Positions 1 to 26,951 of a stretch of 56,003 nucleotides of DNA are shown piece after piece. A program made the translations under genes and the position numbers. The notes under the pieces were generated by a model. That model made no database searches. It was not told the origin of the DNA and saw nothing but the letters and a program-made list of their open reading frames with translations. Source of the DNA: Bacteroidetes bacterium GWF2_33_38 (lineage in GTDB: Bacteria > Bacteroidota > Bacteroidia > Bacteroidales > GWF2-33-38); the NCBI GenBank assembly GCA_001769505.1, contig MEOF01000060.1:1-56003 (forward strand), written 5' to 3'. How positions within the stretch are numbered: position 1 is the first letter of the stretch; each line of letters begins with the position of its first letter.

Positions 1-3000
1 ATTACTGCTCAAACAAATGTGCTTTGCAGAGGAAACAGTACTGGAAATATTACCGTCACAACGTCAGGAGGAACTTCTCCATATACGTTTGCTTGGACAG
101 GAGGACAAACGGTAAACCCCGCCATAAATTTAGCTGCCGGTGAATATACGGTTACCGTTACCGATGCAAACGGATGTATGGCTAACGACAACACTTCGAT
201 TACTCAACCTGCTGCGGTTCTGAGTGCATCTATCTCCGACCAAACAGATGTAAGTTGTAAAGGTCAGGCTACGGGAAATGCAACTGTAACAGCAATGAAT
301 GGAACTCCGGGGTATTCGTATTTATGGAGCGATGGACAGGCGGTAAATCCTGCCATAAATCTTATCGCTGACGATTACATTGTTACAGTTACTGATGCAA
401 ATGGTTGTGAAGTTACTGCAAATGTTACAATCACTGAGCCAGATGTAATTATGACGGCATCAATTACGGCAGAATCTGATGTAACTTGTAATGGATTAGA
501 CAATGGTTCTGCAACGGTTACTCCTGCAGGAGGAGATTCTCCATATTCTTATGCATGGAATTCAACTCCAATTCAAAATACAGTAACCGCTTCAAATTTA
601 GCTCCTGGAAATTACACGGTAACTATTACTGATGCAAATGGTTGTAATAATGTTACTGCATCTGTAAATATTACAGAACCTTCTGAATTAACAGTTTCTA
701 TTACGACTCTAAATAACGTAAGCTGTAATGCTGGAAATAATGGAAACCTTACAGTTACTGCTGGCGGAGGAACAACACCATACACATATTTATGGACAGG
801 TGGGCAAACGACAAATCCAGCTGTAAATTTATCAGTTGGCGAATATACAATTACTGTAACTGACGCTAATTCATGCACCGAAACAGCTACGACTACAATC
901 ACAGAACCGAGTGTTTTAACTGCCTCAATCACAGCCCAAACCAATGTAAGTTGCTATGCAGGAAACAATGGAAGTGCAACGGTTACCGCAGGTGGTGGTG
1001 CAGGAAGCTACACATACTTATGGACAGGTGGGCAAACGACAAATCCAGCCACAAACCTCACCGCAGGATCATATACAGTAACCATTACCGATGCGAATTT
1101 GTGTACCAAAACAACTACGGCTACAATCACACAACCTTCTGTTATTACAGCCTCAATCACGGCTCAAACCAATGTAAGTTGTAATGCAGGAAGCAATGGA
1201 AGTGCAACGGTTACTGCGGGTGGTGGTGCAGGAAGCTACACATACTTATGGACAGGGGGACAAACGACAAATCCTGCCACAAATCTCACCGCAGGATTAT
1301 ATACAGTAACGGTTACAGATGCGAATTCGTGTACCAAAACAACTACGGCTACAATTACTCAACCAACATTATTAACAGCCACTATTTCATCTCAAACCAA
1401 CGTAAGTTGTAATGGAGATAATGATGGAGCTCTTACGGCTACAGGAGGAGGAGGAACAACACCATACTCTTTTGCGTGGGATAATGGACAGTTAACAAGT
1501 TCGATCAATACTCTTATTGCGGATAATTATGAAATAACTATAACCGACTTTAAAAACTGTACGGCAACTACATCAGCAACTATTTCAGAGCCGTCCATAT
1601 TAACAGCTGCAATTACCGCTCAAACAAATATAAGTTGTAATGGAGGAAACAATGGAAACATAACAGTCACAGCTGGTGGAGGAACCTCACCATACACATA
1701 CTTATGGACAGGCGGACAAACGATAAATCCGGCTACAAATTTAGTTGCAGGAAACTATACTGTTACTGTAACTGATGCACATGGATGTACAGAGACAGAC
1801 AACATAACTTTAACTCAGCCATTAATACTAATAGCTACAATTACCGCAAAAACTGATGTAAATTGCTTTGGAGGAAATAATGGAACTGCAACTGTTACAG
1901 CTGGAGGAGGAACAACACCATACTCATATTTATGGACGGGAGGGCAAACCATAAATCCTGCTGTAAATTTAATAGCAGGAACTTATACTGCAACAGTAAC
2001 CGATGGAAATGGTTGTACAAAAACAACTTCCTCAACAATTACTCAACCTGCTGTTTTAACTGCAATTATTTCTTCTCAAACAAATCCGGGTTGTAATGGA
2101 GATAATACGGGAAGTGCAACAGTTACAGCAGGAGGAGGAACTCCTTCTTATACATATTTATGGACAGGCGGGCAAACTACAAATCCCGCAACAAATTTAA
2201 TCGCAGGAGCGTATATAGTTACAGTTACTGATGATAATGGCTGCACCAAAACGACAACCGCAACAATTTCAGAACCTGATGAATTAACAGCTTCAATAAC
2301 AGCAAAAACAGATGTAAGTTGTTTTGATGGAACAGATGGCACTGCAACAGTTACTCCTGTTGGCGGAACAACTCCATACTCTTTCCTATGGAACGACCCA
2401 GCTCCGGCTCAAACCACTTCAATAGCGTCAAACTTATCGGAAGGCAATTATGAAGTTATTGTTACAGATAATTCTGGTTGTACGAAAACCATATCTACAA
2501 CGATAACTGAACCAACAGAATTAATTTTAACACCATCCCATATAAATGCATCTTGTGGCGATTCAAATGGTTCGGCTTCAATTACAGCAGTTGGAGGAAC
2601 CTCTCCATATTCTTTTAATTGGTCAAGTGGAGAATCTGTTGATGCTATTTCAGGAAAAGTTGCGGGAACATACACTGTTACAGTTACTGATGCAAATGGA
2701 TGCGAAAAAATCGAAAACATAAGTATTAATAACGATGGTTCGCCAACAGCAACCATCTCATCACAAACAAATGTAACATGTAATGGAGGAAATGATGGCG
2801 AAGCAATTGTAACTCCATCGGGAGGAACTGCTCCATACACATATTTGTGGACAGGAGGAGGTACTGATTCTACAAAAACAAATATGACAGCTGAAAGTTA
2901 TACTGTAACTATAACTGATGGTAACACCTGTATTTCATCAGCTAATGTAACCATTGATGAACCCGATCCAATTGATGCAATAATTTCAGCCAAGGCAAAT

Positions 3001-6000
3001 GTAAGTTGTAATGGAGGTAGCAATGGAACAGCAACTGTTCTTGCATCTGGGGGCGTAGTTCCATATTCATATTTATGGTCTGACGCTCAATTAACAGCAA
3101 CAGCAACAAATCTTGCTGCAGGGGTTTATGAGGTAACTGTTTCTCAAGGAAGCGGATGTTTAGCTACTGCAACAGCCTCTGTTACTATAACAGAACCTAA
3201 TGCCTTAACTGCTGGCATTACTTCTCAAACAAATGTGAGTTGTAATGGAGGTAGCGATGGAAGTGCTACAGTTACGGCAAGCGACGGAACGGCTCCATAT
3301 TCTTTCTTGTGGAATGATCCGGCTCCTGCACAAACAACAATCACAGCAACTTTATTGTCAGCAGGAAATTATGAAATTACAATAACCGATAACAAAGGAT
3401 GTACAACAACTGCTCCTGTAACTATTACCGAACCAGATGTTTTAACGGCTACTATTACAGATCAAAACAATATAAGTTGTAATGGAGGAACAGATGGCTC
3501 TGCAACAGTTACTGCGGCAGATGGAACTTCTCCATATACATATCTTTGGTCAGACGGTCAATCAAATAGTATTGCAAACAATCTTTTAGAGGGCACTTAC
3601 ACAGTTACCATTACCGATGGTAAAAATTGTACTGCATCAACCAACGTATCTATTATTGAACCCGATATTTTATCTGTAAGTATTCTTTCTCAAATAAATG
3701 TAAGTTGTAATGCCGGTAACGATGGTTCAATAACAGCAACCATTAGCGGAGGAACTACACCATATTCATATAATTGGACAGGTGGGCAAACAACAAATCC
3801 CGCAATCGGATTAAATGCGGGGGCATATACAATTACAGTTACCGATGATGCCGGCTGTACTAAAACCGCCTCTACTACACTTACTCAACCAAACGAATTA
3901 ATTGCATCAATTTCTGCACAAACAAATGTTGATTGTAACGGAAGTGCAACAGGTAGTCTAACAGTTAGTGCTGTCGGAGGAACATTAGCGTACTCATTCT
4001 TATGGTCAAATGCACAAACAGGAGCAACTGCCAACAATCTTATCGCAGGACCCTATACGGTTACGATTACCGATTCAAAAGGATGTACCGATTCAATAGG
4101 AGAAACAGTTACAGAAAACAGCATTGTTACAGCGGAAATTACCGATAGTACAAATGTGAGCTGTAATGGGGAAAGTACAGGAAATGCAACAGTAACTGCA
4201 AGTGGCGGAACATTATCATACTCATATATTTGGTCTGACGGTCAAACCACAAATATTGCAACTAATTTTGCCGAAGGAGAATATTTTGTTACTGTTAGCG
4301 ATGATAATGGTTGTACAGCTACAGCAAATGTAAATATTACGGAACCCACTATTCTTACAGCATCAATTCTTTCAGAAACTGACGTAAGTTGTAATGCCGG
4401 AAGCGATGGAGAGTCCACGGTTTCAGGAAGCGGAGGAACAACTCCATACACCTATTTATGGACAGGAGGCGTAACAACTCAAACATTATCAAATCAAATT
4501 TCAGGAATTTATAATGTAACAGTTACAGATGACAACTCTTGTACAGCTTCAACTTCTGTAGAAATTTTTCAACCCACAGCTATTTCTATTACAAATGTAA
4601 ATACTAATATCTATTGTCGTGGTGATTCAACAGGAGCAATAAATCTTTCGGTTAGTGGAGGAACCTCGCCATATACTTTTGCTTGGTCAAATGGTGCTGC
4701 AACCGAAGACGTATCAGATCTTCCTGCCGGAAATATTTCAATTACAGTTACAGATGATGCCGGATGTAATGCAAGTAAAACGATTACGTTGACACAACCT
4801 GCTGTTACATTATCTGCCTCAACTTCATTTACAGATGTTAGTTGTAATGGAGGGAGCAATGGAACAGCAACCGTTTCTGCTTCGGGAGGAACAACTCCAT
4901 ATTCATATTCATGGACTAGTGGTGCAACTACTCAAACTATTTCAAATTTAACAGTTGGAACTTATGACGTTACAATTACGGACAACAAGTTATGTACAAC
5001 CACATCATCGGTAAGTATTTTAGAGCCAACAACACTTTCAGCAATCATTTCTTCAAAAATAGATGTTAGTTGTAATGGTGGAAATAACGGAACGGCAACG
5101 GTAAATGCTTCAGGCGGAACTAGTCCATACTTATACGTTTGGTCAGGTGGAGGAACTGACTCTACAAAATTGAATATGATTTCCGGAAATTATACTGTTA
5201 CGATTACTGATGCACATGCTTGTACTACAACTGCAAATACTACAATAAATCAACCAACCGTGCTTTCAGCAAACATTTCTGCTCAAACAAACGTAAGTTG
5301 TTTTAGTGGAAATAACGGAGATGCAACGGTAAATGCATTAGGCGGAACAAATCCATATACATATTTATGGTCGAACGCTCAAAACACAATTACAGCAAGT
5401 AATCTAACCGCAAACACATATGCTGTGACTGTTACAGACAGTTTATTGTGTCAAGTTTCTACAAATGTTACTATTACTCAACCCGATTCGATAATTATAA
5501 ACATTGTTTCAAGAACAAATATTAGTTGCAATGGCGGAGATGATGGAGTAATTACAATTAGCGTGTCCGGAGGAGAAACTCCAATAGCATTTTTATGGGA
5601 CGATGCACAAACAGATTCTTTAGCTATAAATTTATCCGCAGGTATTCACACGGTTACAATTACAGATGCTAATTCATGTTCATTAGATAAAACCATAACT
5701 CTATCACAACCAAACATTTTGATTGTATCAGCAACTCAAAATAATGTTAGTTGCAATGGCGAAGCTGATGGGAGTGCAACTGCAACATCAATTGGAGGCA
5801 CGCCAATATATTCATACTTATGGTCAAATGGAGCAAGCACCGGAACTGCATCAAATCTTGTAGCAGGAAACTATATTGTAACAGTAACTGACTCAAAAGC
5901 ATGTACAGATACAACTTCCATTACAATTACACAACCTGCCCCTGTTGTTCCGGAAGCCGGTAATAATCAATCTATTTGTACAGGATATGAGATTACATTA

Positions 6001-9000
6001 TCTGCAACAGGAGGAGAAATATACAGTTGGAACAATAGCGTAACGCAAGATGTTGCTTTTGTTCCATTAACTACAACTACCTATACAGTAACTGTCACTG
6101 ACTCAATTGGTTGTTCTGCAATAGATTCAGTGACCATTAGTTTATACCCCGAACTCATTGCAAATGCAGGCAATGAACAATCAATCTGTGCTGGAAGTTC
6201 AGTCCAAATAGGTAGCACCCCCACAGCATCGGGAGGCATGAGTCCATATTCTTATTTATGGAATAATTCTGCAAGTCTTGATAATGACACAATTGCAAAT
6301 CCAATAACGGAAGCAATGACAAACACAACATATCAGTTAACCATTACTGATGCAAATGGATGTGAATCAACCGACGATGTGCTGATAAATGTAAACTTAC
6401 TTCCAACGGTTGATGCAGGATTAGAAAGTGTGATTTGTGAAGGATATAGCTATGTTCTTTCAGGAACTTATGGCGGAGGAGCCTCAAGTGTCACTTGGTC
6501 GTCGCCAACATCATTAACAGGTGATGCATTCAACAATGTGAATGATACTGCGGCAATTTACACTCCAACAATTAACGATATTTCAAATGGATTAGTTGTT
6601 CTTACCCTTACAACCAATGACCCAACGGGCTCTTGTGTTGCGGTTTCTGACAGTGTAACTTTAAGTATTAGTTTAGCTCCTATCGTTGATGCAGGGAATA
6701 ACCTTATTCTTTGTTCAAACAATATTGATATAAATCTAAATGGAAGCGTAACCGTAGGTTCAACTACAGGAATTTGGATGACAAGTGGAACCGGCTCATT
6801 TGCACCACATGATAGCGATTTAACCGCTGAATACATTCCGACAATAGATGACATTTCGAGTGGACAAATCTGGCTAAAACTTACATCTACCAATACACCA
6901 AACTGTAACGAGATAAGTGATTCAATTTCTATTACGTTTACTGACGCCCCCCTTGTTAGTGCGGGAAGTGACACAATACTTTGTGCAAACAATTCCGAAC
7001 TTCAGCTTTCGGGAACGGTATCGGGAGCTAATTCTACAGGAATTTGGACGACAAGTGGAACAGGAAACTTTAGTCCATTCGATACAACATTGAGTACCAT
7101 CTATACTCCTAGCGTTCAGGACACTACAAATGGAACAGTAACTCTATATCTTACTTCAACAAATATTGGGACTTGTAATTCAATTACTGATTCAATTGAA
7201 TTAATTATTACAAAATCTCCTTACGTTTTTGCAGGAGACAATATCAATATGTGTCCCGATGTTATGGAAATTCCTCTTGAAGGTATTATTTCGGCAGGAG
7301 CCACACAAGGAATTTGGACAAAATCGGGAACCGGAAGCTTTTTCCCGGATAATACAAGTTTGAATACAACATACACCTTGAGTTCTTTGGATACTATAAA
7401 TGGAGGCGTAAATTTATTCCTTACATCAGCAGATAATGGAAATTGTTTGACTGTTCGAGACACGCTAACGATTTCTATATCTTCTTCAATCGAGACTAAT
7501 GTAAGTGGCAACGATATTGTTTGTGCACATATTCCGTCGATTTCAATTGAAGGAGAAGTATGGGGAAATACCAACGAGGGAGTTTGGACAACATCTGGAA
7601 ATGGGAGCTTTAGTCCAAATGATACGTCCTTAATTGTTGACTACATAATTAGCCCCGATGATACATTAAATGGAAGTGTAAATTTAATTTTTACTTCAAC
7701 AAATAATGGGCTCTGCGAAGCAAAAAGCGACACGTTAGAATTAAGAATAGATCCTGGAATTTATGTCGAGGCGGGAAATGACAATACCGTTTGTGCAAAT
7801 AATGCCGAAATTTCTTTGTTAGGAAATGTATGGGGCGGTACGACATCAGGAAAATGGTCGTCAAGCGGAGATGGTTTTTTTACTCCAACCGACAGCTCTC
7901 TTGCTACCACTTATATTCCAAGTAGTGCAGACACAAGCAATGGATTTGTTACATTGTATCTCGAATCAACAAATAATGTCGACTGTCAACCAGTAGTTGA
8001 CTCAATTTTTGTTACAATCACTCCCGCTCCGCACGTAATTGCAGGAACTGACAAATATATTTGCGTAAACAATCCAACTGTAAATTTAAATGGAATTATT
8101 TTTGGCGGAAGTTCTTCAGGCTATTGGACAACAAACGGAACTAACGAATTTAGTACCGATTCAACAACATTAATTAACACATATTTACCATCTGAAGAAG
8201 ATACATTAAGTGATAATTTATTTTTCGTATTAACTTCAACAAACAATGGCGACTGCTTAATCGAATCTGATACATTGAACGTGTATTTTACTCCCGCCCC
8301 AGAAGTTTTTGCAGGAGATGACGAAGGAATATGCAGCAATAGCTCTTTCGATTTGATTGGAGTTGTGAATGGAGGAGCAGGAACTGGAATGTGGACAAAT
8401 ATTACAGGGTCTGGAAATTTTAATCCTGATAGAGAGGATTTGCCTGTTACTTTTATCCCTGCCGACGATGACATTATATTGGGTTATGCTCTTTTGCAAC
8501 TAGAATCTACAAATACCACAGGTTGTATCACTGTTTACGACACAATTAGAGTTTCGATTGCTCCTTCGGCAATAGTCGAAGCTGGCGATAGCATTACCAT
8601 TTGCGACAACAATAGTTTAGTTCAACTCAATGGTTCTGTTTCAGGTCCAACAACAACCGGAATTTGGACAACTAACGGAGATGGAATTTTTGCAACTTCC
8701 GACACATTTATGGATGCCACTTATGTTCCCGGTCCTCAAGATTTAGTTACGGGTGAAATCACATTTATTTTAACATCTACAAACAATGGAGATTGTGAAG
8801 GAAATTCCGATTCAGTCAACGTAGAAATATTACAAGCCCCGACAGTATATGCAGGTCCAAACAGAACAGTATGTAAATCGTTGAATGTATATCAAGTTGG
8901 ATCGGTAAGTGGAATTACTAGTTCTGGAACTTGGTCTTCGACTGGATATGGTTTATTTTTAACAAACACAACCCAATTAGCCGTTTATCAGCCAGGGGCA

Positions 9001-12000
9001 GCAGATATTGCAAACGAGTTTGTAGGTTTAATTTTAACATCTGATAATAATGCAACTTGTTTGGCTGTTGCCGACACAGCGTACATTATTTTAATTGACA
9101 AACCTAATGTTAATGCTGGAGATGACCAACATATTTGCTCCAATAATTCAATAATTCAATTAAATGGATATATCGAAGGAGCCACAGCAACATGGATAAC
9201 AAATGGCTCCGGGTATTTTATTCCTGATAGTATCACCCTTGATGCTCAGTATATCTCTTCTCCCGCAGATACATTATTGGGCAACATACAATTCATTCTT
9301 GAAGCCACAAATTCGTGTACTATTTCGGATAGTCTAGAAATAACATACACTCCCTCTCCTATTGTTGATGCTGGAGCGGCATTCCGTCCAACTTGTATTG
9401 GAGTAAAAAACATAAGTATGGTAGGAACTGTAACGGGAGGAGCAACAACCGGAAAATGGACAACTTCAGGAACCGGATATTTTATTCCTAACGATTCAAG
9501 TTTAGTTGCAACATATGTTAGAAGCGACCAAGATAGTATCGATGGTCAATTTATTATTTACCTTACAGCTACCAACTACGATAATTGTATCGAAGTTAAA
9601 GACTCTTCAAGATTTCGATTAACAACCATCCCTGTGGTAAACGCAGGTAGCGATTTTACATATTGTGCCAATAATGCTAATGTTCAATTAAACGGAATCG
9701 TTAATGGAGGTGCTTCTACAGGAATGTGGACGTCAAGTGGAACGGGGACTTTCTCTCCAAGCAATACATCTCTCAATGCAATCTATACCCCTAGCGTTCA
9801 AGACACCACAAATGGAAATGCTACTCTATTTTTACGCTCAACTGATGCTTGTGTAACCAGCTACGATACTGTTCAATACTCATTTACCCCAGCTCCTTTT
9901 GTTCATGCCGGTATCGACATTACCGTTTGTGCAAACAATAACATTATGAACCTCGACGGATACGTACGCTCAACTTCATCAACGGGAAAATGGTACAGTA
10001 CAGGAAGCGGAATATTTTATCCCAATAATACTTCTTTAGACGCTGAATATCAACCAAGTACAGCCGATAGAAATTCGGGGCAGATTGCTCTTACTCTTGT
10101 TTCAACAAACAACGGAATGTGTTATCCAGTAAAAGACACATTACTAGCAAGAATAACATCTGAGCCTATCGTTGATGCCGGTGAAGACGAATATATTTGC
10201 AAAGGAGATGTAATTGAACTTTCCGGATCTATAACCGGTGGAGCAACTTCAGGAATTTGGGAGTCATCAGGTTCTGGCGAATTTAGTCCTAATGCCGAAA
10301 GTTTAACTACAAACTATATTCCAAGTACAGAAGATACTACTATAGGTTTCTTGACATTAACGCTTACGTCAACAAACAATCAAAATTGTATTGCCGTTCA
10401 AGGTGTGAAATTCATTACCTTCACCGACAAGCCAACTGTTTTAGCCGGAAGCGATCAAACAGCTTGTGCAAACAATTCCACAATTCAGTTAAACGGATAT
10501 ATTGGAGGAAGTTCTACAACTGGTATTTGGTCAAGTTTAAGCGGAGGAAGCTTTACTCCTTCTACAACAAATTTAGATGCCGACTATACTCCAGGTCTAA
10601 CTGCCTTGCAAAATGGATTGGCAAATTTGGTTTTAACATCAACAAATGCTTGTGAGGTTCACGATACTGTACAACTTGTATTTACCAACGCCCCATATGT
10701 AAATGCCGGTTTCGACCAAGTTTTCTGTATTTCAAATCCTATTGTTGAGCTTGATGGAACTGTTTCAAATGGAGCAACATCAGGAATTTGGGAAACTTCA
10801 GGGACTGGATATTTCAGTCCAAGCGATACCGTGTTTGATGCAATATACTACCCAAGCATTACCGACACTTTGTTTGGAAATATTACACTATCCTTAACAT
10901 CAACAAACAATGGAAATTGTATTGCCGAAAATGATGAAATGACGGTTAGTTTTGTACAAAAACCAATTGTTGAAGCAGGTTTAGATCAAATTATTTGTGC
11001 CAATGCGATGTTGATGCTTGACGGTTTAATTCTTGGAGGAATTTCCGAAGGGTATTGGCAAACTACAGGCACAGGTTCCTTTTCACCCGATTCTTCAGAT
11101 TTGTACGCAGTATATGTTTTCAGTAACGAAGACACAACTAATCAGTACGTTCCGATGATATTGTCAACTCCGGAATATCATGGTTGTCAATCAGAGTCAG
11201 ATACAATGAATGTAACCATTACTCCCGCACCTCATGTTGAAGCCGGAAACGACATTACCGTTTGTGCCAACAACTCTGAAATTATACTCAATGGTCATGT
11301 TTGGGGTTCCTCTCACTCGGGAGAATGGACAACATTGGGTAGTGGTGTTTTTATTCCAAACGATTCCATTATCACGGCAACTTATCTGCCAAGTGATGCT
11401 GATATTGATTCTGGTTTTGTCAGGTTGATTTTAAAAAGCACAAATAATCAGGATTGCTACGCTGAACGCGATACAATTAATGTTACAATTTCTCCTTCTC
11501 CTGAGATTAACGCAGGAAACGACCAATACGTTTGTAATGGGAACAATGTATATTTGAATGCAACAATATCTGGCGGGGCAACTTCAGGAATTTGGTCAAC
11601 CAACGGAACGGGTACAATTACGCCAAGCGATACTAGTTTAAGTATTACGTACATTCCTTCTCCTGCGGACACTGTTATTGGAAATCTATATTTTATTTTA
11701 ACGGCACAAAATTATGGTTTATGTAATCTTGTCGAGGATTCGATATTTATTACATTTACTCCTCGTCCTTATGTTGAGGCGGGAACTGATGTGATTGCTT
11801 GTGCCAACAATGCAAATATTGTATTAGACGGTATTGTAAATGGAAGCACAATCACGGGAATGTGGGCAACAAGTGGCGATGGATATTTCTTATCTGATTC
11901 TACTCAACTTGACGCACAGTATATTCCGGGAGCTGAAGATGTTTCATCTGGTTATGCAACTCTCACGTTATCATCAACCTATGCTTGTTTAGAAATAGAT

Positions 12001-14370
12001 TCAATACGTGTTTCAGTTACTCCAGCACCAAATGTTAATGCTGGTTCAAACCAAGTTATTTGTAATAACGAAGGAGAAGTTTTTCTTGCAGCAACAATTA
12101 TAGGTGGAGCATCACAAGGCGAATGGTTTACAACTGGAAGTGGAGAATTCGTTCCAAATACAAACGATTTGAATGCAACATATTTAGTTAGTCCGCTCGA
12201 TAGTTTAATTGGTAGCTTTTCACTCATTTTGACATCAACTGATAATGGAGATTGTTTGGCTGAAAGTGATACCATGAGAGTTCGAATAACAACTGTTCCT
12301 TCCGTTTATGCAGGATTAGACCAAACTGTTTGTGCCAATGTAATTACACAACTCAACGGCTCAATTGATGGGGGGAATAATTCAGTTCGATGGATCACCT
12401 CCGGTTCCGGAACTTTTATTCCTAGTGATACGGCACGTAATGCTCAATATGTTTTCAGTCCAGCTGATACTAGCTTTGGAAATCTTGAACTTACACTTTT
12501 ATCTACAGGTGCATGTTTAGACATAACCGACAAAATGCTTATTGATATTACTCCGGCTCCTTACATTAATTCATGGATTGTAAATATGGCTTGTGCCAAT
12601 AACGATACGGTTGAATTACATAGCGAAGTTTCAATTGCCGGAGGGTTAACGTGGTCAACCATTACTGGAGGTGAATTTTTCGAAAGCGACACAACATTAA
12701 ATCCTCTGTATATAATGACATCTCAAGATTATGACAATGGAAATATTGATTTTGTTTTAACCACAATCGACAATGGCAATTGTAATGCGGTTATCGATAC
12801 GCTTTCATTAAACATTAATCCGGCTCCGATTGTAAATGCTGGTTTTGATCAAAATATTTGCTACGAAGATTTATACGTCAGATTATTTGGAGTTATTTCA
12901 GGGGGAGCATCTCATGGAACATGGGTAACTAATGGAACGGGAACATTTTCGCCAAGCAATATGTCGCTAAATGCAATTTATATTCCATCGCTTAACGATA
13001 CTACTTCTGCTCAAAATGGTTTAGATTTTATACTTACATCTTCTGATAACGGCTCTTGTATAGCCGTCTCTGATACAATGCACGTTTATTGGACAGAAAA
13101 GCCAATTGTTGAAGCCGGAAATGACGTTGAAATCTGTGCATATACCGATTCAATTTCGTTAATCGGAAATATTGTTGGTTCAAGTACAACTGGTATTTGG
13201 ACAAGCTCGGGCACGGGAGAATTTTATCCTAGCAATAACGATTTACAAGCTGTTTATCTACCGAGTGATTCAGATAAAGTTGTTGGGAATATTGTTTTAA
13301 CATTAACTTCGACAAACAGTTGTTCACCTGAATCGGATAATATACTTTTAAATATTTATCCCGTTCCGGAACTTAACTTTACAGCCTTAAGTATTTGTAA
13401 TTACAATACCGTTGCTTTTAGTAATTCATCTATCATAAATTCAGGATTAATTGAAGATTGGTATTGGAATTTTGGTGATGGAGGAATTGACTCCGTAAAA
13501 AGTCCTGTTCATTCGTTTGCAAATATAAGTTCATTCGCAGTACAACTCATTGCTACATCTGATAAATTGTGTAGCGATACACTTACAAAACAGGTTGCAA
13601 TTCGTGGACTTGATGCAAACTTTACATATCAAGCGAATTGTATTAACGATTTTGTATTATTGAACGATAGTTCTGTGGTTCAAAACGATTCACTCGTTAC
13701 GTGGTTGTGGACTTTTGGTGATGGCGAAAGCGATACGACTCAAAACACATTGCATATGTATGAGTATATTGATGATTATGACGTTTCATTAACAGTTGTA
13801 ACAAATACAGGTTGTATTGATTCGATTTCAAAAGAGATTTCGATTCACCCTGATCCAACAGCAGGATTTACATATACGCCAGAAATCCCTTTCCCACACG
13901 AAGAAATATCATTCTCCGACATTTCATTTGGAGCAACTACTTGGATTTGGCATTTCGATGATGGTTCTGATTCTACATCTTCGCAGAATCCTCTTCATAC
14001 TTATTACGAAATGAACACATATACCGTTACCCAGATTGTAATGAACGAGTATGGCTGCACGGATACCATGTCGGTTGATTTATTGGTTGAAGGAATTGTC
14101 GAACCTCTTATCCCTGCTGCATTTACACCAAATAACGATACTCAAAACGATATATTAAAAGTTCGTGGAGGACCTTTCTCTTCAGTTGAAATGACTATTT
14201 TCAATAGTTGGGGAAAACAACTTTTCCACACCGAAAATCAAAACGAAGGTTGGGATGGAACATATAAAGGAAAACCACAGCCAATAGGAGTTTACATTTA
14301 CATTGTTAATGTAAAAACTATTGATGGTGAAGAGTATGTTAAAAAAGGTGATATTACATTGTTGAGATAA
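1..14370 (+). CDS. Giant T9SS-secreted repeat protein, SprB-like, type B sorting domain (5' partial)
   Basis: The reading frame is already open at base 1, so the start lies beyond the left edge; the first GTG (base 19) is a repeat-internal valine. Four blocks are visible. Bases 1 to about 5,935 hold about 26 SprB-type repeats of 70-76 residues, each with a VSCNGG-like start, an SPYTYLW core and a YTVTVTDANGC end. Two related domains follow to about 6,400. About 26 repeats of roughly 89 residues (VxAGxDxxxCANN start, G.W.TSGTG.F.P core, LTSTN end) run to about 13,370. Three PKD domains follow (WNFGDG, WTFGDG, WHFDDG). The last ~90 residues (AAFTPNNDTQND ... WDGTYKGKPQPIGVYIY) are a CHU_C/gliding-motility type B T9SS sorting domain. 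The likely role is a very long cell-surface adhesin or filament resembling SprB. A PorP/SprF gene follows 57 bases downstream, as is usual for type B substrates. The ligand is unknown. Confidence 0.92.
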   Translation: MTAQTNVLCRGNSTGNITVTTSGGTSPYTFAWTGGQTVNPAINLAAGEYTVTVTDANGCMANDNTSITQPAAVLSASISDQTDVSCKGQATGNATVTAMNGTPGYSYLWSDGQAVNPAINLIADDYIVTVTDANGCEVTANVTITEPDVIMTASITAESDVTCNGLDNGSATVTPAGGDSPYSYAWNSTPIQNTVTASNLAPGNYTVTITDANGCNNVTASVNITEPSELTVSITTLNNVSCNAGNNGNLTVTAGGGTTPYTYLWTGGQTTNPAVNLSVGEYTITVTDANSCTETATTTITEPSVLTASITAQTNVSCYAGNNGSATVTAGGGAGSYTYLWTGGQTTNPATNLTAGSYTVTITDANLCTKTTTATITQPSVITASITAQTNVSCNAGSNGSATVTAGGGAGSYTYLWTGGQTTNPATNLTAGLYTVTVTDANSCTKTTTATITQPTLLTATISSQTNVSCNGDNDGALTATGGGGTTPYSFAWDNGQLTSSINTLIADNYEITITDFKNCTATTSATISEPSILTAAITAQTNISCNGGNNGNITVTAGGGTSPYTYLWTGGQTINPATNLVAGNYTVTVTDAHGCTETDNITLTQPLILIATITAKTDVNCFGGNNGTATVTAGGGTTPYSYLWTGGQTINPAVNLIAGTYTATVTDGNGCTKTTSSTITQPAVLTAIISSQTNPGCNGDNTGSATVTAGGGTPSYTYLWTGGQTTNPATNLIAGAYIVTVTDDNGCTKTTTATISEPDELTASITAKTDVSCFDGTDGTATVTPVGGTTPYSFLWNDPAPAQTTSIASNLSEGNYEVIVTDNSGCTKTISTTITEPTELILTPSHINASCGDSNGSASITAVGGTSPYSFNWSSGESVDAISGKVAGTYTVTVTDANGCEKIENISINNDGSPTATISSQTNVTCNGGNDGEAIVTPSGGTAPYTYLWTGGGTDSTKTNMTAESYTVTITDGNTCISSANVTIDEPDPIDAIISAKANVSCNGGSNGTATVLASGGVVPYSYLWSDAQLTATATNLAAGVYEVTVSQGSGCLATATASVTITEPNALTAGITSQTNVSCNGGSDGSATVTASDGTAPYSFLWNDPAPAQTTITATLLSAGNYEITITDNKGCTTTAPVTITEPDVLTATITDQNNISCNGGTDGSATVTAADGTSPYTYLWSDGQSNSIANNLLEGTYTVTITDGKNCTASTNVSIIEPDILSVSILSQINVSCNAGNDGSITATISGGTTPYSYNWTGGQTTNPAIGLNAGAYTITVTDDAGCTKTASTTLTQPNELIASISAQTNVDCNGSATGSLTVSAVGGTLAYSFLWSNAQTGATANNLIAGPYTVTITDSKGCTDSIGETVTENSIVTAEITDSTNVSCNGESTGNATVTASGGTLSYSYIWSDGQTTNIATNFAEGEYFVTVSDDNGCTATANVNITEPTILTASILSETDVSCNAGSDGESTVSGSGGTTPYTYLWTGGVTTQTLSNQISGIYNVTVTDDNSCTASTSVEIFQPTAISITNVNTNIYCRGDSTGAINLSVSGGTSPYTFAWSNGAATEDVSDLPAGNISITVTDDAGCNASKTITLTQPAVTLSASTSFTDVSCNGGSNGTATVSASGGTTPYSYSWTSGATTQTISNLTVGTYDVTITDNKLCTTTSSVSILEPTTLSAIISSKIDVSCNGGNNGTATVNASGGTSPYLYVWSGGGTDSTKLNMISGNYTVTITDAHACTTTANTTINQPTVLSANISAQTNVSCFSGNNGDATVNALGGTNPYTYLWSNAQNTITASNLTANTYAVTVTDSLLCQVSTNVTITQPDSIIINIVSRTNISCNGGDDGVITISVSGGETPIAFLWDDAQTDSLAINLSAGIHTVTITDANSCSLDKTITLSQPNILIVSATQNNVSCNGEADGSATATSIGGTPIYSYLWSNGASTGTASNLVAGNYIVTVTDSKACTDTTSITITQPAPVVPEAGNNQSICTGYEITLSATGGEIYSWNNSVTQDVAFVPLTTTTYTVTVTDSIGCSAIDSVTISLYPELIANAGNEQSICAGSSVQIGSTPTASGGMSPYSYLWNNSASLDNDTIANPITEAMTNTTYQLTITDANGCESTDDVLINVNLLPTVDAGLESVICEGYSYVLSGTYGGGASSVTWSSPTSLTGDAFNNVNDTAAIYTPTINDISNGLVVLTLTTNDPTGSCVAVSDSVTLSISLAPIVDAGNNLILCSNNIDINLNGSVTVGSTTGIWMTSGTGSFAPHDSDLTAEYIPTIDDISSGQIWLKLTSTNTPNCNEISDSISITFTDAPLVSAGSDTILCANNSELQLSGTVSGANSTGIWTTSGTGNFSPFDTTLSTIYTPSVQDTTNGTVTLYLTSTNIGTCNSITDSIELIITKSPYVFAGDNINMCPDVMEIPLEGIISAGATQGIWTKSGTGSFFPDNTSLNTTYTLSSLDTINGGVNLFLTSADNGNCLTVRDTLTISISSSIETNVSGNDIVCAHIPSISIEGEVWGNTNEGVWTTSGNGSFSPNDTSLIVDYIISPDDTLNGSVNLIFTSTNNGLCEAKSDTLELRIDPGIYVEAGNDNTVCANNAEISLLGNVWGGTTSGKWSSSGDGFFTPTDSSLATTYIPSSADTSNGFVTLYLESTNNVDCQPVVDSIFVTITPAPHVIAGTDKYICVNNPTVNLNGIIFGGSSSGYWTTNGTNEFSTDSTTLINTYLPSEEDTLSDNLFFVLTSTNNGDCLIESDTLNVYFTPAPEVFAGDDEGICSNSSFDLIGVVNGGAGTGMWTNITGSGNFNPDREDLPVTFIPADDDIILGYALLQLESTNTTGCITVYDTIRVSIAPSAIVEAGDSITICDNNSLVQLNGSVSGPTTTGIWTTNGDGIFATSDTFMDATYVPGPQDLVTGEITFILTSTNNGDCEGNSDSVNVEILQAPTVYAGPNRTVCKSLNVYQVGSVSGITSSGTWSSTGYGLFLTNTTQLAVYQPGAADIANEFVGLILTSDNNATCLAVADTAYIILIDKPNVNAGDDQHICSNNSIIQLNGYIEGATATWITNGSGYFIPDSITLDAQYISSPADTLLGNIQFILEATNSCTISDSLEITYTPSPIVDAGAAFRPTCIGVKNISMVGTVTGGATTGKWTTSGTGYFIPNDSSLVATYVRSDQDSIDGQFIIYLTATNYDNCIEVKDSSRFRLTTIPVVNAGSDFTYCANNANVQLNGIVNGGASTGMWTSSGTGTFSPSNTSLNAIYTPSVQDTTNGNATLFLRSTDACVTSYDTVQYSFTPAPFVHAGIDITVCANNNIMNLDGYVRSTSSTGKWYSTGSGIFYPNNTSLDAEYQPSTADRNSGQIALTLVSTNNGMCYPVKDTLLARITSEPIVDAGEDEYICKGDVIELSGSITGGATSGIWESSGSGEFSPNAESLTTNYIPSTEDTTIGFLTLTLTSTNNQNCIAVQGVKFITFTDKPTVLAGSDQTACANNSTIQLNGYIGGSSTTGIWSSLSGGSFTPSTTNLDADYTPGLTALQNGLANLVLTSTNACEVHDTVQLVFTNAPYVNAGFDQVFCISNPIVELDGTVSNGATSGIWETSGTGYFSPSDTVFDAIYYPSITDTLFGNITLSLTSTNNGNCIAENDEMTVSFVQKPIVEAGLDQIICANAMLMLDGLILGGISEGYWQTTGTGSFSPDSSDLYAVYVFSNEDTTNQYVPMILSTPEYHGCQSESDTMNVTITPAPHVEAGNDITVCANNSEIILNGHVWGSSHSGEWTTLGSGVFIPNDSIITATYLPSDADIDSGFVRLILKSTNNQDCYAERDTINVTISPSPEINAGNDQYVCNGNNVYLNATISGGATSGIWSTNGTGTITPSDTSLSITYIPSPADTVIGNLYFILTAQNYGLCNLVEDSIFITFTPRPYVEAGTDVIACANNANIVLDGIVNGSTITGMWATSGDGYFLSDSTQLDAQYIPGAEDVSSGYATLTLSSTYACLEIDSIRVSVTPAPNVNAGSNQVICNNEGEVFLAATIIGGASQGEWFTTGSGEFVPNTNDLNATYLVSPLDSLIGSFSLILTSTDNGDCLAESDTMRVRITTVPSVYAGLDQTVCANVITQLNGSIDGGNNSVRWITSGSGTFIPSDTARNAQYVFSPADTSFGNLELTLLSTGACLDITDKMLIDITPAPYINSWIVNMACANNDTVELHSEVSIAGGLTWSTITGGEFFESDTTLNPLYIMTSQDYDNGNIDFVLTTIDNGNCNAVIDTLSLNINPAPIVNAGFDQNICYEDLYVRLFGVISGGASHGTWVTNGTGTFSPSNMSLNAIYIPSLNDTTSAQNGLDFILTSSDNGSCIAVSDTMHVYWTEKPIVEAGNDVEICAYTDSISLIGNIVGSSTTGIWTSSGTGEFYPSNNDLQAVYLPSDSDKVVGNIVLTLTSTNSCSPESDNILLNIYPVPELNFTALSICNYNTVAFSNSSIINSGLIEDWYWNFGDGGIDSVKSPVHSFANISSFAVQLIATSDKLCSDTLTKQVAIRGLDANFTYQANCINDFVLLNDSSVVQNDSLVTWLWTFGDGESDTTQNTLHMYEYIDDYDVSLTVVTNTGCIDSISKEISIHPDPTAGFTYTPEIPFPHEEISFSDISFGATTWIWHFDDGSDSTSSQNPLHTYYEMNTYTVTQIVMNEYGCTDTMSVDLLVEGIVEPLIPAAFTPNNDTQNDILKVRGGPFSSVEMTIFNSWGKQLFHTENQNEGWDGTYKGKPQPIGVYIYIVNVKTIDGEEYVKKGDITLLR
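923..1378 (+). repeat. Two nearly identical 228-bp tandem copies inside the giant gene
   Basis: Two adjacent SprB-repeat units, 923-1150 and 1151-1378, are far more alike at DNA level than the other units, including long identical stretches at silent positions (for example around the GGAAGCTACACATACTTATG segment). The period is 228 bases, or 76 codons. This points to a recent in-frame unit duplication or gene conversion. Confidence 0.75.
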
Positions 14371-14427: not shown

Positions 14428-15435
14428 ATGAAAAAGATAATATACATAACCGTTGCTTTTTTGATAAGTGTTAACGCTGTGAAAAGTCAGGATTTTCACC
14501 TATCGCAATACGACTTATCGCCTATGTTGATGAATCCGGCATTTACGGGTTTATTCGATGGACAGTATCGAGTGCATGTGCAGCATCGAAGCCAATGGAG
14601 TTCGATACTCGAAAATCCTTTTAAAACTGTGCATATTTCATTCGACAAACCATTTAAACGCTTTGGGGCAGGAATCTTGATTTTGAACAATCGTGCAGGT
14701 GTCGGAAAATTTAATTTTTTGAATATCGCTTTGTCAGGTTCGTACGAAGTTACCATCGACCCATCAGGAATACAGCATTTGGTATTTGGAACTCAAATCG
14801 GAATGGTTCAAAATAGTTTCGATTTATCGCAACTAACATTCGATAATCAGTACACAAGTGCTTTTGGAGGGAGCTTTGATCAAACGATTGATAACGGCGA
14901 AAATTTCTCAAAAACCAGTGTAATTCGCCCCGACGTGAATTTTGGTGTTCATTACATGATGCAACAACGATTTAACTATTTCAATTATTCGGTTTATAAA
15001 ATGAGTGAAATTGTTCCTTTTGGAGGAGCAGTCATTTTCCACTTAACGCAACCTAAATTAACATTCGGCGAATTTAAAAACACATTGTATCGACGGTATG
15101 TTGCTTATGGAGGAGCTCGCATAAAGGTTAATATTCCGCTATGTTTAGAACCTAAAATTATGTATATGCGACAACTCAATAACAATGAGTTTCAATTTAG
15201 CACATCAGCGTATTATTATATTGAAAATTACGGAGCTTACGCTTTTTCAACACTGAACCTTAGACCAAAAGATGCATTTATTGTTAGCTTAGGTGCAATT
15301 TATAAAGATTACCGATTTAGCGTAGGATACGATTTTAATACCTCGCCGCTGAAAGCATTAACCAAGGGACGAGGAAGTTTTGAAATCTCAATTACTTATA
15401 CAAAATTTAATAATAAATCATATCCAATGTTCTAG
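14428..15435 (+). CDS. PorP/SprF family type IX secretion outer-membrane protein
   Basis: The protein has 335 residues. It starts with a signal peptide (MKKIIYITVAFLISVNAVKS, cleaved before QDFHLSQYD), followed by the family hallmark LSPMLMNPAFTGLFDGQYR and an HRSQW motif. The rest is rich in alternating aromatic/polar strands, as expected of a small outer-membrane barrel. In this family SprF of Flavobacterium johnsoniae is needed for export of SprB, and such genes commonly follow type B CTD substrates. Here it lies 57 bases after the giant gene on the same strand, so the two are probably co-transcribed and this protein is probably the dedicated partner of that substrate. The substrate link is inferred from position. 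Confidence 0.9.
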   Translation: MKKIIYITVAFLISVNAVKSQDFHLSQYDLSPMLMNPAFTGLFDGQYRVHVQHRSQWSSILENPFKTVHISFDKPFKRFGAGILILNNRAGVGKFNFLNIALSGSYEVTIDPSGIQHLVFGTQIGMVQNSFDLSQLTFDNQYTSAFGGSFDQTIDNGENFSKTSVIRPDVNFGVHYMMQQRFNYFNYSVYKMSEIVPFGGAVIFHLTQPKLTFGEFKNTLYRRYVAYGGARIKVNIPLCLEPKIMYMRQLNNNEFQFSTSAYYYIENYGAYAFSTLNLRPKDAFIVSLGAIYKDYRFSVGYDFNTSPLKALTKGRGSFEISITYTKFNNKSYPMF

Positions 15436-15438
15436 ATT

Positions 15439-15777
15439 TTAGTACAGCAAATGCATTTTCGATTTATTGTTCCAACCAGCTTGCGATTCGTAATCGACAA
15501 AATAAATTTTTAAATCGGCTTGCGATTCGTAGTCAACAAAATAAATCTTTTTATCGGCTTGCGACTCATAATCTACAAAAAACCATTTTCCGTCTTTATC
15601 GGCTTGCGATTCGTAACTTACTTTATAAACTTTTAAGTCAGCTTGCGATTCGTAATCAACTTTGTAAACTTTAACATCGGCCTGTGATTCATAATCGACT
15701 GAATAAACTTTTTGTGCAAAAATTTGATTTGTAAATGTAAATCCCACAATCACAAGTAATAGAATTAAATTTTTCAT
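15439..15777 (-). CDS. Small secreted YESQAD-repeat protein, probable 7(1) septoil-knot (DUF6150-like)
   Basis: The protein has 112 residues from the ATG at 15777, preceded by a CAAGG ribosome-binding-like sequence. An upstream in-frame start at 15870 lies inside the neighbouring hydrolase gene and is less likely. Residues 1-21 form a signal peptide ending IFA, so the protein is exported. The mature part is six short repeats of the form VYxVDYESQADxK, the fourth preceded by a DGKW insertion and the last ending YESQAGWN. From memory, this repeat matches the small DUF6150 / septoil-knot family, whose predicted fold is a 7(1) torus knot, among the most complex known in proteins; I could not run a profile search. 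No catalytic motif is seen and the function is unknown. It is the last gene of a three-gene minus-strand group, 16 bases after the hydrolase. Confidence 0.7.
   Translation of the reverse strand: MKNLILLLVIVGFTFTNQIFAQKVYSVDYESQADVKVYKVDYESQADLKVYKVSYESQADKDGKWFFVDYESQADKKIYFVDYESQADLKIYFVDYESQAGWNNKSKMHLLY
15478..15703 (-). repeat. Six in-frame DNA repeats encoding YESQAD units
   Basis: Read on the plus strand, CTTGCGATTCGTAATC-like units recur six times at roughly 36-45 base spacing. They are coding repeats of the knot-like protein, not spacers of a CRISPR array. Confidence 0.85.
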
Positions 15778-15793: not shown

Positions 15794-16603
15794 TTATAAT
15801 TCGGTTTCGTTATTTGTAACAAATTGTTTAAGTGTAGATAAAAATACGTTTTTTTCTTCGATAAAACCAATATGTCCAGAGTTTTCTAATACAAATTTTT
15901 GACCATCTTTAGGAAGTTGAATGTTAACCGCAACTTTTTTATAGTCGATATAATTGTCTTTTTTTCCTTGAATCATCAAAAATGGCAATGTCGAATTTTT
16001 TAAAAAAGTTGACATGTCTTTTCGGTTTTTCATAGCAAATATGCACGAAATAATGCCTTCGTCGGGAGTTTGTTTGGCAAGTAATTTTGCAAAATCGACT
16101 TCTTTTTTAAACTTCAATAAATTTTCGTCGGCAAACATCTTCGGCGAATTTATCGAGTACATCTTTTCTTTTCCTCCTTGACGAATTAATTCAATTTCTT
16201 TAATCCTACTATCCGCTTTTTCATCAGAATCGGCATATGGATGCGAGTGCAACAACCCAAAACCTTTCACCTTTGCTGGATATTTTTCTACAAAAGCTAA
16301 GGTCGCATAACCTCCCATAGAATGACCAAAAATGAAAAATTTTTCGATTCGTAATTCGGCAAGGACAAAATTTACGGTATCGGCAATGTATTCCATGCTA
16401 TTGTTGGAGTTGACTTGTGATTTTCCATGCCCAGGAATGTCAATGCATATCACTTGGAAATGTTTTGCCAAATCGTTTGTAAATTCACTAAAGATGGCTA
16501 AAGATTCTAGAAAACCGTGTAACAAAACGACTGAAGTTCCAATGCCCTCGATGCTGTATCGAACTTTAAGATTATTGTATGTTGTAAATTTTATTTTCTT
16601 CAT
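15794..16603 (-). CDS. Alpha/beta-fold hydrolase
   Basis: The protein has 269 residues with a complete alpha/beta hydrolase signature: oxyanion HGF near residue 29, nucleophile elbow FGHSMGG with Ser95, a C-terminal acid region (QGKKDNYID) and the catalytic His in SGHIGF. It has no signal peptide and is probably cytoplasmic. The substrate (ester, lactone or similar) cannot be told from sequence. Its ATG overlaps the stop of the upstream aminopeptidase gene by four bases (ATGA), which implies translational coupling. Confidence 0.88.
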   Translation of the reverse strand: MKKIKFTTYNNLKVRYSIEGIGTSVVLLHGFLESLAIFSEFTNDLAKHFQVICIDIPGHGKSQVNSNNSMEYIADTVNFVLAELRIEKFFIFGHSMGGYATLAFVEKYPAKVKGFGLLHSHPYADSDEKADSRIKEIELIRQGGKEKMYSINSPKMFADENLLKFKKEVDFAKLLAKQTPDEGIISCIFAMKNRKDMSTFLKNSTLPFLMIQGKKDNYIDYKKVAVNIQLPKDGQKFVLENSGHIGFIEEKNVFLSTLKQFVTNNETEL

Positions 16604-17994
16604 CTTACTAGATTTTCGACTTCTTCAACAGTGATTGGAATTCGTTTTTTACCAAGCAGTCGGCTTCCAGTTTCGGTTAACAAAATATCATCTTCAAGTC
16701 GAATTCCACCAAATCCAATATATTCTTCTACTTTAGTAAAATTGATAAATTCATGATTGATTTTTTCGGTCTTCCATTTTTCAATTAAGGCAGGAATAAA
16801 ATAAATTCCAGGCTCGTTTGTAATTACAAAATTTGCTTGGAGTTTTTTTCCCATTCGCAAATATGCTGTTCCAAATTGGTCGATAGGTCTTATTTCGTCG
16901 TCATAACCGACATAAATTTGTCCTAAATCTTCCATATCGTGAACATCAAGTCCCATCATATGACCAAGTCCATGAGGAAAGAACATGGCATGTGCTCCTG
17001 CTTTTACCGCTTCATCAACATCTCCTTTCATCAAACCCAAATCCGTTAAGCCTTGAGCAATAATTCGAGCCGATGCCAAATGAATGCTTTGATAGGTTAC
17101 GCCTGGCTTAATAAGTTTTGTTGCACCATTATTTGCAGCCAACACTATTTCGTATATTTCTTTTTGCTTTTGCGAAAATTTTCCTCCTACAGGCGATACT
17201 CTTGTGTGGTCGGTAGCATAGTGTAATATTGATTCAAACCCTGCATCAACTATCACTAAGTCTCCTTTTTGAAGTTTATTTTCATGACAATGATTGTGTA
17301 ATGTTTCGCCGTGTTTTGAAAGAATAACTGGAAACGAAACCATACCTCCATGCGAAAGAGCAATTCCTTCGATTCGCCCAGCAATTTCTCTTTCGTAAAC
17401 CCCAGCTTTAGCCATTTTCATTGCAGATGTGTGCATTTCGTATGCAACGTCCATAATTTCGTCAAGGTGAGCAATTTCGTATTTATCTTTTACTGAACGG
17501 AGCTTAATCACAGCTTTAACAAGTTCTAATGATGCAGACTCTTTAAGATTTGATATTTTTATGCTTAATAAATCCTCAAGTAAAATTTTATTTTCAGCTC
17601 TATACGGAGGCAGAAAATGTATTTTTCGACCTTGTGATTTTGCTTTTGCAAGATAATCAGCAAGTTTGTCAAATGGTTTGTTTTGTTGAATACCAACTTT
17701 TAAGCATAATTCTTTTACTGATGGTTGAGGCCCCATCCAAATAATATCTTCGATATCAATATCGTTTCCAAAAATAGTTTCTTCACCTGATTCAACATCA
17801 ATTACTCCTGCAAATGCAGGTAAATCGAGTCCAAAAAAATATAAAAATGAACTGTCTTGTCGAAACTTGTAAGTATTTGCCGGATAGCTCATTGGGACAT
17901 CTACGTTTCCTAATATCAAAACAATTCCATTAGAGATATTTGACGTAAGATTTTTTCTTCTTTCTGAATATAGTTTAGCTTCAAACATTTGCAT
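16600..17994 (-). CDS. M24 family Xaa-Pro aminopeptidase
   Basis: The protein has 464 residues and would cleave the N-terminal residue of peptides with proline in position 2. An N-terminal creatinase-like domain is followed by a pita-bread catalytic domain holding the five metal ligands: VDAGFES and TDHTR (two Asp), FFPHGLGHMMGLDVHD (His), TNEPGIYF (Glu) and IRLEDDI (Glu). ATG codons at 17994 and 17988 are both possible starts; neither has a clear ribosome-binding site. It heads a minus-strand group with the hydrolase and the knot-like protein. A second, shorter M24 protein is encoded at 30,473. Confidence 0.93.
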   Translation of the reverse strand: MQMFEAKLYSERRKNLTSNISNGIVLILGNVDVPMSYPANTYKFRQDSSFLYFFGLDLPAFAGVIDVESGEETIFGNDIDIEDIIWMGPQPSVKELCLKVGIQQNKPFDKLADYLAKAKSQGRKIHFLPPYRAENKILLEDLLSIKISNLKESASLELVKAVIKLRSVKDKYEIAHLDEIMDVAYEMHTSAMKMAKAGVYEREIAGRIEGIALSHGGMVSFPVILSKHGETLHNHCHENKLQKGDLVIVDAGFESILHYATDHTRVSPVGGKFSQKQKEIYEIVLAANNGATKLIKPGVTYQSIHLASARIIAQGLTDLGLMKGDVDEAVKAGAHAMFFPHGLGHMMGLDVHDMEDLGQIYVGYDDEIRPIDQFGTAYLRMGKKLQANFVITNEPGIYFIPALIEKWKTEKINHEFINFTKVEEYIGFGGIRLEDDILLTETGSRLLGKKRIPITVEEVENLVR

Positions 17995-19142: not shown

Positions 19143-20024
19143 TTAATTATTTTCTTCGTAGTAGTAAGAGTAGTCAATCCCTTTCATATACATTTCGCGA
19201 TTGTTGATTTTGTCGGTGAGTGCATTATTTAAAAGAGTCTTTAGAACATTGCTGTTTGTTGGGCTTAGCATCATTGCTTTCATATACTCCCCTTTGCTTA
19301 TTTTGCTCCAATCCACGCATTTTTTAAGGCTGTTTTTTAATATCAAATCCAACCATATTCGGGCACTTCTGCCATTGCCTTCCATAAAAGGGTGAGCAAT
19401 GTTTATTTCTACATATTTGTTTACGATTTCGTCAAATGTAGTTTCGGGCATTGCTTCTATTTGCTTTAATGTATCTCCTAAAAAGCGTGATATGGCAAAT
19501 TGAAAACCAGCTTTTGAAATATTTTTCTGTCTGATTTGTCCTGCAAAATCATACAATCCGCCAAATAAATATGCGTGTATTTGTTGCAAGCCTTTGGTTG
19601 TGCCAATTTCAATGCTGTCGATAAAAGAACTTTCAAACAAGGCATAGGCTTTTATTTTGCTTTTTCCGTCAATGCTTTCGTCGCTGAAAGTAAACCAATC
19701 AATAAACCGGTTCGCTTTTGTTCCGGGAAAGGTTTTGCCTAAGGAAATAATGCCCTTATAGTCGAGCATATCGGCTAAACGAATTTTACCGTCGGGGGCA
19801 ATAAATTTCAACTGGGTAGTAACACTAACCACTTGACTATTTTCTTTCTTCAGTTTGGCTTTTAGGTATTTCCAATAGTTGCGGGTTTTGGTGTAGTCGT
19901 TTTGGTCGGTAAGCACGGCAACAATATCCAACACAGAAAACCACCATTTGGCGTTTTGCTCGTCCCAAACAGCTCGCACCTCGCGGTCGTTAAAAAAACG
20001 GATGGATATTTTTGAATTATTCAT
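19143..20024 (-). CDS. BRO-N / Fic domain protein (probable AMP-transferase or toxin)
   Basis: The protein has 293 residues. Residues 1-110 resemble BRO-N / phage antirepressor domains ([28 protein letters not shown]). Residues ~130-270 form a Fic domain with a complete motif [12 protein letters not shown], catalytic His211, plus an upstream [14 protein letters not shown] flap. Fic enzymes usually move AMP from ATP onto a protein hydroxyl, and many act as toxins or growth regulators. I see no clear (S/T)xxxE(G/N) inhibitory helix in the protein and no separate antitoxin gene beside it. The gene looks richer in G and C than its flanks and sits between direct repeats, which suggests horizontal acquisition. 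The target is unknown. Confidence 0.88.
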
Positions 20025-26240: not shown

Positions 26241-26951
26241 TCAAGAGAAATTAAAGAGCAAATGATGTATTATAAATTCAGAGCTAAACCTATTATGGTA
26301 ACTATCGAAAGTAAATTCATTTTCTTCTATTGAATTATCTACAATTCTTATTAAATCGCCATCAGATGTAGTATTGAATTTTTCATTTAGTTTAGATATA
26401 ATCTCATTTTTTGCAGATAAAACATCTCCCTCTAACACAAAACCTATCATACCGCCAAAATCTAATTTTTGAGCATATTTTCCATTGAAGTATCGATAAA
26501 CACCGCCATCAAAGATGTTTTCATTGTTTGAGTCCTTCTTGTAAGTATTATAGTAAACGTATTTATTGACTAAATCTTGACTATCATTCAAATTTTTACA
26601 CTCAAAATGGAATTCTTTGCTTTTCCAATTCGTGCTATGTATGGTAATATCATAATTTCCCTCAACTTCTTCATCATTTGTATTTTCTCCAAAAGCCGTA
26701 AAATGATAGCTAAATTCCCTATCAGCATTTAGTTTAATCCTTAAAAATTTTGCAATTTCTCTTTCAACTCTTGGATATGATTTTTTAATCTTTTCTTTTA
26801 ATTCTATGCTATCGTAATTTTGATAAAATGTGAGTAAATAATAGAAAATCCATTTTTTCCAAAAATCATCATCCAATTCTTTTAAAAGATGGATATAGTT
26901 TGGCAATTGAGAGGGTTTATTAACTTTAATGTATTCTCTTTCCATTTCCAT
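26241..26951 (-). CDS. Probable PD-(D/E)XK restriction endonuclease subunit
   Basis: The protein has 236 residues and no match I can name. It carries a clear nuclease core: YDITI (Asp101) followed by EFHFECKNL (Glu117-x-Lys119), with a hydrophobic strand around each half, the spacing usual for PD-(D/E)XK enzymes. It starts inside the 3' end of the methyltransferase gene (26-base overlap), so the two are translationally coupled. From this pairing I infer that it is the cutting partner of that methyltransferase. A second possible start is the ATG at 26945. The DNA is strongly AT-rich. Confidence 0.68.
   Translation of the reverse strand: MEMEREYIKVNKPSQLPNYIHLLKELDDDFWKKWIFYYLLTFYQNYDSIELKEKIKKSYPRVEREIAKFLRIKLNADREFSYHFTAFGENTNDEEVEGNYDITIHSTNWKSKEFHFECKNLNDSQDLVNKYVYYNTYKKDSNNENIFDGGVYRYFNGKYAQKLDFGGMIGFVLEGDVLSAKNEIISKLNEKFNTTSDGDLIRIVDNSIEENEFTFDSYHNRFSSEFIIHHLLFNFS

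Follow-up and report, generated by a model that had tools for sequence, protein, structure and literature searches.

How deep knots are tied in proteins is an open question, to which help from the ribosome or from cytosolic chaperones is one proposed answer. The only solved structure resembled by the predicted shape of the protein treated here is Q9PR55 of Ureaplasma urealyticum (PDB entries 8IWA, 8IWB and 8JRM), the most complex knotted protein known. Q9PR55 was predicted to form a 7(1) knot with a core at residues 27-83, and its homologue P73136 was predicted to form a 5(1) knot (PMC9278004); the 7(1) form of Q9PR55 was confirmed by crystallography (PMC13352647). Knots also occur in other repeat proteins, namely designed knotted tandem repeat proteins and the natural Knotted Solenoid, which appear to have other folds (PMC10598012, PMC13123833). 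AlphaFold disregards topological barriers and can predict knots that should be inaccessible to folding (PMC10672856).

The present analysis concerns a gene for a 112-residue protein (positions 15439-15777, minus strand) in a window of 56,003 nucleotides, the whole stretch of DNA analyzed, from Bacteroidetes bacterium GWF2_33_38. The preferred reading, with a probability of roughly 0.6, is that this is a Sec-exported protein of the DUF6150 family that forms a compact, torus-like ring of six units, probably torus-knotted, with its turns packed together.

The open reading frame listing and its translation place the ATG at 15777 and the stop codon at 15439-15441. A leader of 21 residues (MKNLILLLVIVGFTFTNQIFA, 15715-15777, minus strand) is followed by a predicted signal peptidase I cleavage site before Q22, as judged from the sequence and from family conservation of the site, leaving a mature protein of 91 residues that consists of six units and a C-terminal cap. 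On the minus strand, the units lie at 15673-15711 (KVYSVDYESQADV), 15634-15672 (KVYKVDYESQADL), 15595-15633 (KVYKVSYESQADK), 15550-15594 (DGKWFFVDYESQADK), 15511-15549 (KIYFVDYESQADL) and 15472-15510 (KIYFVDYESQAGW), and the cap, NNKSKMHLLY, lies at 15442-15471 and includes a helix predicted by AlphaFold2 at residues 105-110. Copies of YESQA start at residues 29, 42, 55, 70, 83 and 96 (spacings of 13, 13, 15, 13 and 13), so that the six YESQAD repeats of the original prediction were recovered where it had located them. The consensus of the 13-residue unit is K-[VI]-Y-x-V-D-Y-E-S-Q-A-D-x; the VYxVDYESQADxK unit quoted previously holds as a description of six repeats, but not residue for residue, because the sequence is VSYESQAD in unit 3 and the last residues of unit 6 are AGW. 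Similarly, the DGKW insertion that had been assigned to the fourth unit amounts to a net gain of two residues before WFFV, ahead of the fourth strand. In the alignment of relatives, G63 is invariant and W65 nearly invariant, both in repeat 4.

Membership in DUF6150, which had been proposed earlier, was borne out by a profile search in which the protein matched Pfam PF19647 over positions 3-98 of 98 (E 9.6e-28, 96.5 bits against a curated cut-off of 27). The protein shares with this profile the six units, a W after the third and AGW after the sixth, and no notable difference was seen. One scan of species genomes identified relatives at 80 loci, at 60-80% identity and nearly full length, and together with the E value this places the six-repeat pattern far beyond chance. 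Pfam gives no described function for DUF6150, the family was not named in the literature searched, and searches of NCBIfam and PHROGs gave no significant match for the protein.

By label, nearly all of the 80 loci belong to Bacteroidota and a few to Ignavibacteria or Chlorobi, with some labels resembling misbinned contigs. Distribution within the phylum is patchy: the family was present in 20 of 395 genomes, and in 21 of 60 nearer-relative genomes sampled, most of which were from one order. The window's own genome contains a second, much diverged member on another contig (29.5 bits; C6:126006-126308, loci L002 and L128), which is a DUF6150-like exported protein lacking the repeated motif. Fifteen relatives were found on IMG/VR contigs, while phage and plasmid records gave no match to the protein and two further viral scans yielded no relatives. 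The copies on IMG/VR contigs called viral (L096-L106) mostly have a turn motif that varies from unit to unit, as opposed to the uniform motif of nearly all genome copies.

Export is well supported by the sequence of the leader and its conservation. Of 116 aligned family members, 112 have Ala, Ser or Gly just before the predicted cleavage site and 112 have Gln at +1. Such an A/S/G-Q junction is what the Bacteroidetes Q-rule describes for substrates of signal peptidase I (PMC5837995, PMC10653852), and the DUF6150 protein has the hydrophobic leader, the small residue and the Gln at +1 that this rule calls for. The signal peptide that had been predicted is a good one, and passage through Sec is well supported. 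A search for the C-terminal sorting domain of type IX secretion gave no CHU_C or Por_Secre_tail match in the protein.

Structure prediction from the single sequence gave an AlphaFold2 model with a pLDDT of 42, which was rejected. When an alignment of 48 relatives was supplied, one model of five was confident (pLDDT 91.8, pTM 0.75) and the other four had values of about 50. In the confident model, a helical turn of three residues comes after each of six strands and includes E-S-Q from the motif. A Foldseek search of 350,542 PDB chains with this model returned Q9PR55 in all of its top four rows (8iwa, 8iwb and 8jrm; E 1.9e-3 to 3.5e-2), while the row after these had an E value of 0.7, which makes Q9PR55 the sole clear fold match in the PDB. 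The Foldseek alignment was 25% identical over 73 columns, and its pairing had an rmsd of 10 A. Superposition on 8IWA with VIA-align gave a Z of 6.4, which is below the tool's own caution level of Z 8, with 2.3 A over 62 residues and 24% identity. This superposition matched residues 23-84 of 8IWA, a part that spans the predicted knotted core, to model residues 20-102 and required a 21-residue gap. The two tools thus indicate a fold shared with 8IWA at moderate strength and with that gap in the alignment. HMMER searches of the PDB sequences did not list Q9PR55, whether the query was the protein itself, any of three profiles or any of four additional single sequences, including an artificial consensus probe. 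A search of a viral structure library found nothing.

These comparisons support placing the modeled protein in the same fold class as Q9PR55, and lend indirect support to the knot that had been proposed. Mature lengths are alike (91 residues here and 89 in Q9PR55), but the present protein would be exported with a leader that is cleaved off. In Q9PR55, by contrast, the N terminus seems to remain part of the fold, with 79 of its 89 residues ordered in the crystal. P73136, likened here through its published description, would belong to the same class by way of its homology to Q9PR55, and like the DUF6150 protein has 112 residues. The 21 model residues skipped in the superposition amount to approximately one and a half units, and, together with the 10 A rmsd of the Foldseek pairing, suggest that the chain path may differ from that of Q9PR55 by one winding, a difference of the sort that distinguishes a 5(1) from a 7(1) knot. 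By our estimate, some knot is probably present, and the chances that it is a 7(1) knot are evenly balanced.

The part of this analysis most worth a specialist's attention is a new observation, that the turn motif switches as a set. Among 110 complete relatives, the Y-x-x-Q motif hardly varies among the six units within a protein but differs between proteins, the types including YESQ, YENQ, YDYQ, YEHQ, YKSD, YKSE, YKYD, SKYD, AEYK and KKYN, as well as KERE, which belongs to a leaderless member. The residue two positions after the conserved Tyr (+2) is fully uniform in 90 of the 110 proteins, and at least five of the six residues are alike in 97. In the first 81 proteins, pairs of units within a protein agreed at +2 at a frequency of 0.956, in comparison with 0.637 after shuffling, a null in which proteins were permuted within each unit and kinship was not kept. 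The flanking positions exhibited much less set-wise sameness, or none. Because the shuffles are blind to kinship and the available tree, built on 58 columns, is poorly resolved, the argument is carried by two other comparisons. In 12 mutually divergent proteins (<55% flank identity), agreement at +2 was 0.79 versus 0.44. Furthermore, two orthologues with the same gene neighbors, one with Ser in all six repeats (L015:5989-6333) and one with Asn in all six (L025:1019-1354), differ at six of six +2 sites and at only 8 of 86 other mature sites (Fisher p 4e-6). Parsimony on the weakly resolved 58-column tree gave about 30 changes of state at +2. Where Tyr occupies +2, Ser, Ala, Lys or His often replaces Tyr at position 0, a pairing that fits volume balance in a shared core. 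Altogether, the pattern suggests that the six turns pack symmetrically. Couplings between +1 residues, uncorrected for kinship, were strongest between repeats 1 and 4, 1 and 6, 3 and 5, and 4 and 6; a contact map of the repeats based on these couplings was dropped, because the tree was too poorly resolved for a kinship correction.

A mechanism consistent with these data begins after export, when the 91 mature residues would fold into a compact ring, torus-like in shape and built from six strand-turn units, which probably holds a torus knot, either 7(1) or, as in P73136, 5(1). Closure of a pseudo-symmetric ring would bring the six turns together, and residues packed against one another would have to match in size. 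Because the turns would pack on one another, the residue two positions after the conserved Tyr would need to be alike in all six of them. A stronger form of this proposal, which we hold tentatively and at somewhat short of even odds, is that the torus-knotted protein is exported unfolded by Sec, becomes knotted in the ATP-free periplasm and has a packed core of six-fold pseudo-symmetry, in which the six side chains could change only together, so that switches of the whole set, such as six Ser to six Asn, occur between close orthologues.

Ordinary beta-solenoids, too, contain stacks of identical Asn, Ser or Tyr, which counts in favor of a chain that has the same local units and is unknotted or differently knotted (an open solenoid, a 5(1) knot or another torus knot), with AlphaFold misplacing one repeat. 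The failure of four of the five models, the 10 A in-register rmsd and the 21-residue gap all point the same way, as do the different knots predicted for two homologues of the Q9PR55 family (PMC9278004) and the blindness of AlphaFold to topological barriers (PMC10672856). Against a different path stand the knotted protein's position as the only fold match and a superposition at 2.3 A that covers its predicted knotted core, and we regard such a path as unlikely, though it is the most serious competitor to the packed, probably knotted ring. Somewhat less probable still is that sameness of the motif arose mainly at the DNA level, by gene conversion or slippage between repeats, and not by packing. 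Codons for Ser at +2 do tend to fall in one block within a gene, all TCN or all AGY (0.82 versus 0.56 expected from local usage), and in one relative (L011) the 15-base motif DNA is nearly identical in all six repeats. Recent copying of whole motifs would also match the wobble bases of the neighboring Tyr and Gln codons, but agreement at these bases is no higher than expected from local codon usage (differences of -0.016 +/- 0.021 and 0.005 +/- 0.022), which argues against it, and the strands between the motifs retain repeat-specific sequence throughout the family. The shared Ser codon block may be read as a more ancient trace, left by common origin or by a shared mutational route. Selection would be needed at least for keeping motifs alike after copying, and both causes may act; copying may start a switch, and selection for sameness would keep it.

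It is improbable that the variable motif is instead a specificity code, in which six copies of a short binding loop for a surface ligand are varied between lineages by selection. The motif does vary as one unit between proteins, and the protein is exported and patchily distributed, but the compensation seen between position 0 and +2 is more suggestive of core packing. Far more doubtful is a joint function with the genes upstream, an M24 Xaa-Pro aminopeptidase-like gene (16600-17994, minus strand) and an alpha/beta hydrolase gene (15794-16603, minus strand), both identified by profile match. The peptidase gene comes first and overlaps the hydrolase gene by 4 bases, and a 16-base gap separates the latter from the DUF6150 gene; this tight spacing on one strand makes a local operon plausible, as had been predicted. 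As a feature of the family, however, the operon did not stand, because the peptidase gene accompanies DUF6150 in none of the fetched loci. The order of hydrolase and DUF6150 genes does favor a partnership in the close relatives L003, L117 and L118, and among the fetched loci it is kept only there, whereas recurrent neighbors of DUF6150 elsewhere differ between clades. Furthermore, no signal peptide was seen in the hydrolase and peptidase sequences, so these enzymes probably act in another compartment than the DUF6150 protein. A defense role was also considered and rejected, as PADLOC gave no match for the protein or its two operon partners.

The packed-ring protein would likely act in the cell envelope, as a small module of great stability with a structural or binding role, and would be neither an enzyme nor tied to one pathway. 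We infer this stand-alone envelope function from two observations. The absence of conserved gene neighbors speaks for a stand-alone role, and a domain-fusion form of the family, seen in L142:1420-2136 (minus strand, counted on the reverse complement) and in G041 C1:45204-45398, points to the envelope. In L142, KYAYEAD-type repeats without a leader form the N terminus and are linked through a serine-rich stretch to a membrane span and an SH3_3-like domain, the match to SH3_3 being weak and sub-threshold.

A protein related to the most complex known knot, if exported, would have to tie after passage through Sec, without ribosome or cytosolic chaperones, and would therefore offer a clean test system. 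The set-wise switch of six residues is a rare natural experiment on symmetric cores, as it allows the stability and folding of orthologue pairs that differ largely by the switch to be compared. Should the chain prove unknotted, one kind of sequence repeat would be compatible with a knotted fold as well as an open one, and this would also be useful.

Near the DUF6150 gene, no RNA family, tRNA or terminator-like site was found. Its convergent neighbor, a PorP/SprF-like gene (14428-15435, plus strand), ends 3 bases away, and adjoins an open frame of 4783 residues (19-14370, plus strand) with 26 SprB repeats, PKD domains and a CHU_C type IX sorting domain. At L126, among the close relatives, a PorP/SprF-like gene and a gene for a PKD-type protein also adjoin DUF6150. 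A second giant type IX cargo protein of 2274 residues, with Ig, PKD-like and SprB repeats and Por_Secre_tail, is encoded at 48934-55758 (minus strand). Elsewhere in the window, a likely restriction-modification gene encoding an N6 DNA methylase that matches the MmeI methyltransferase domain lies at 26926-29943 (minus strand), and a Fic domain protein with a BRO-N-like N terminus (19143-20024, minus strand) matches the PADLOC candidate defense model PDC-S04 at 2e-160.
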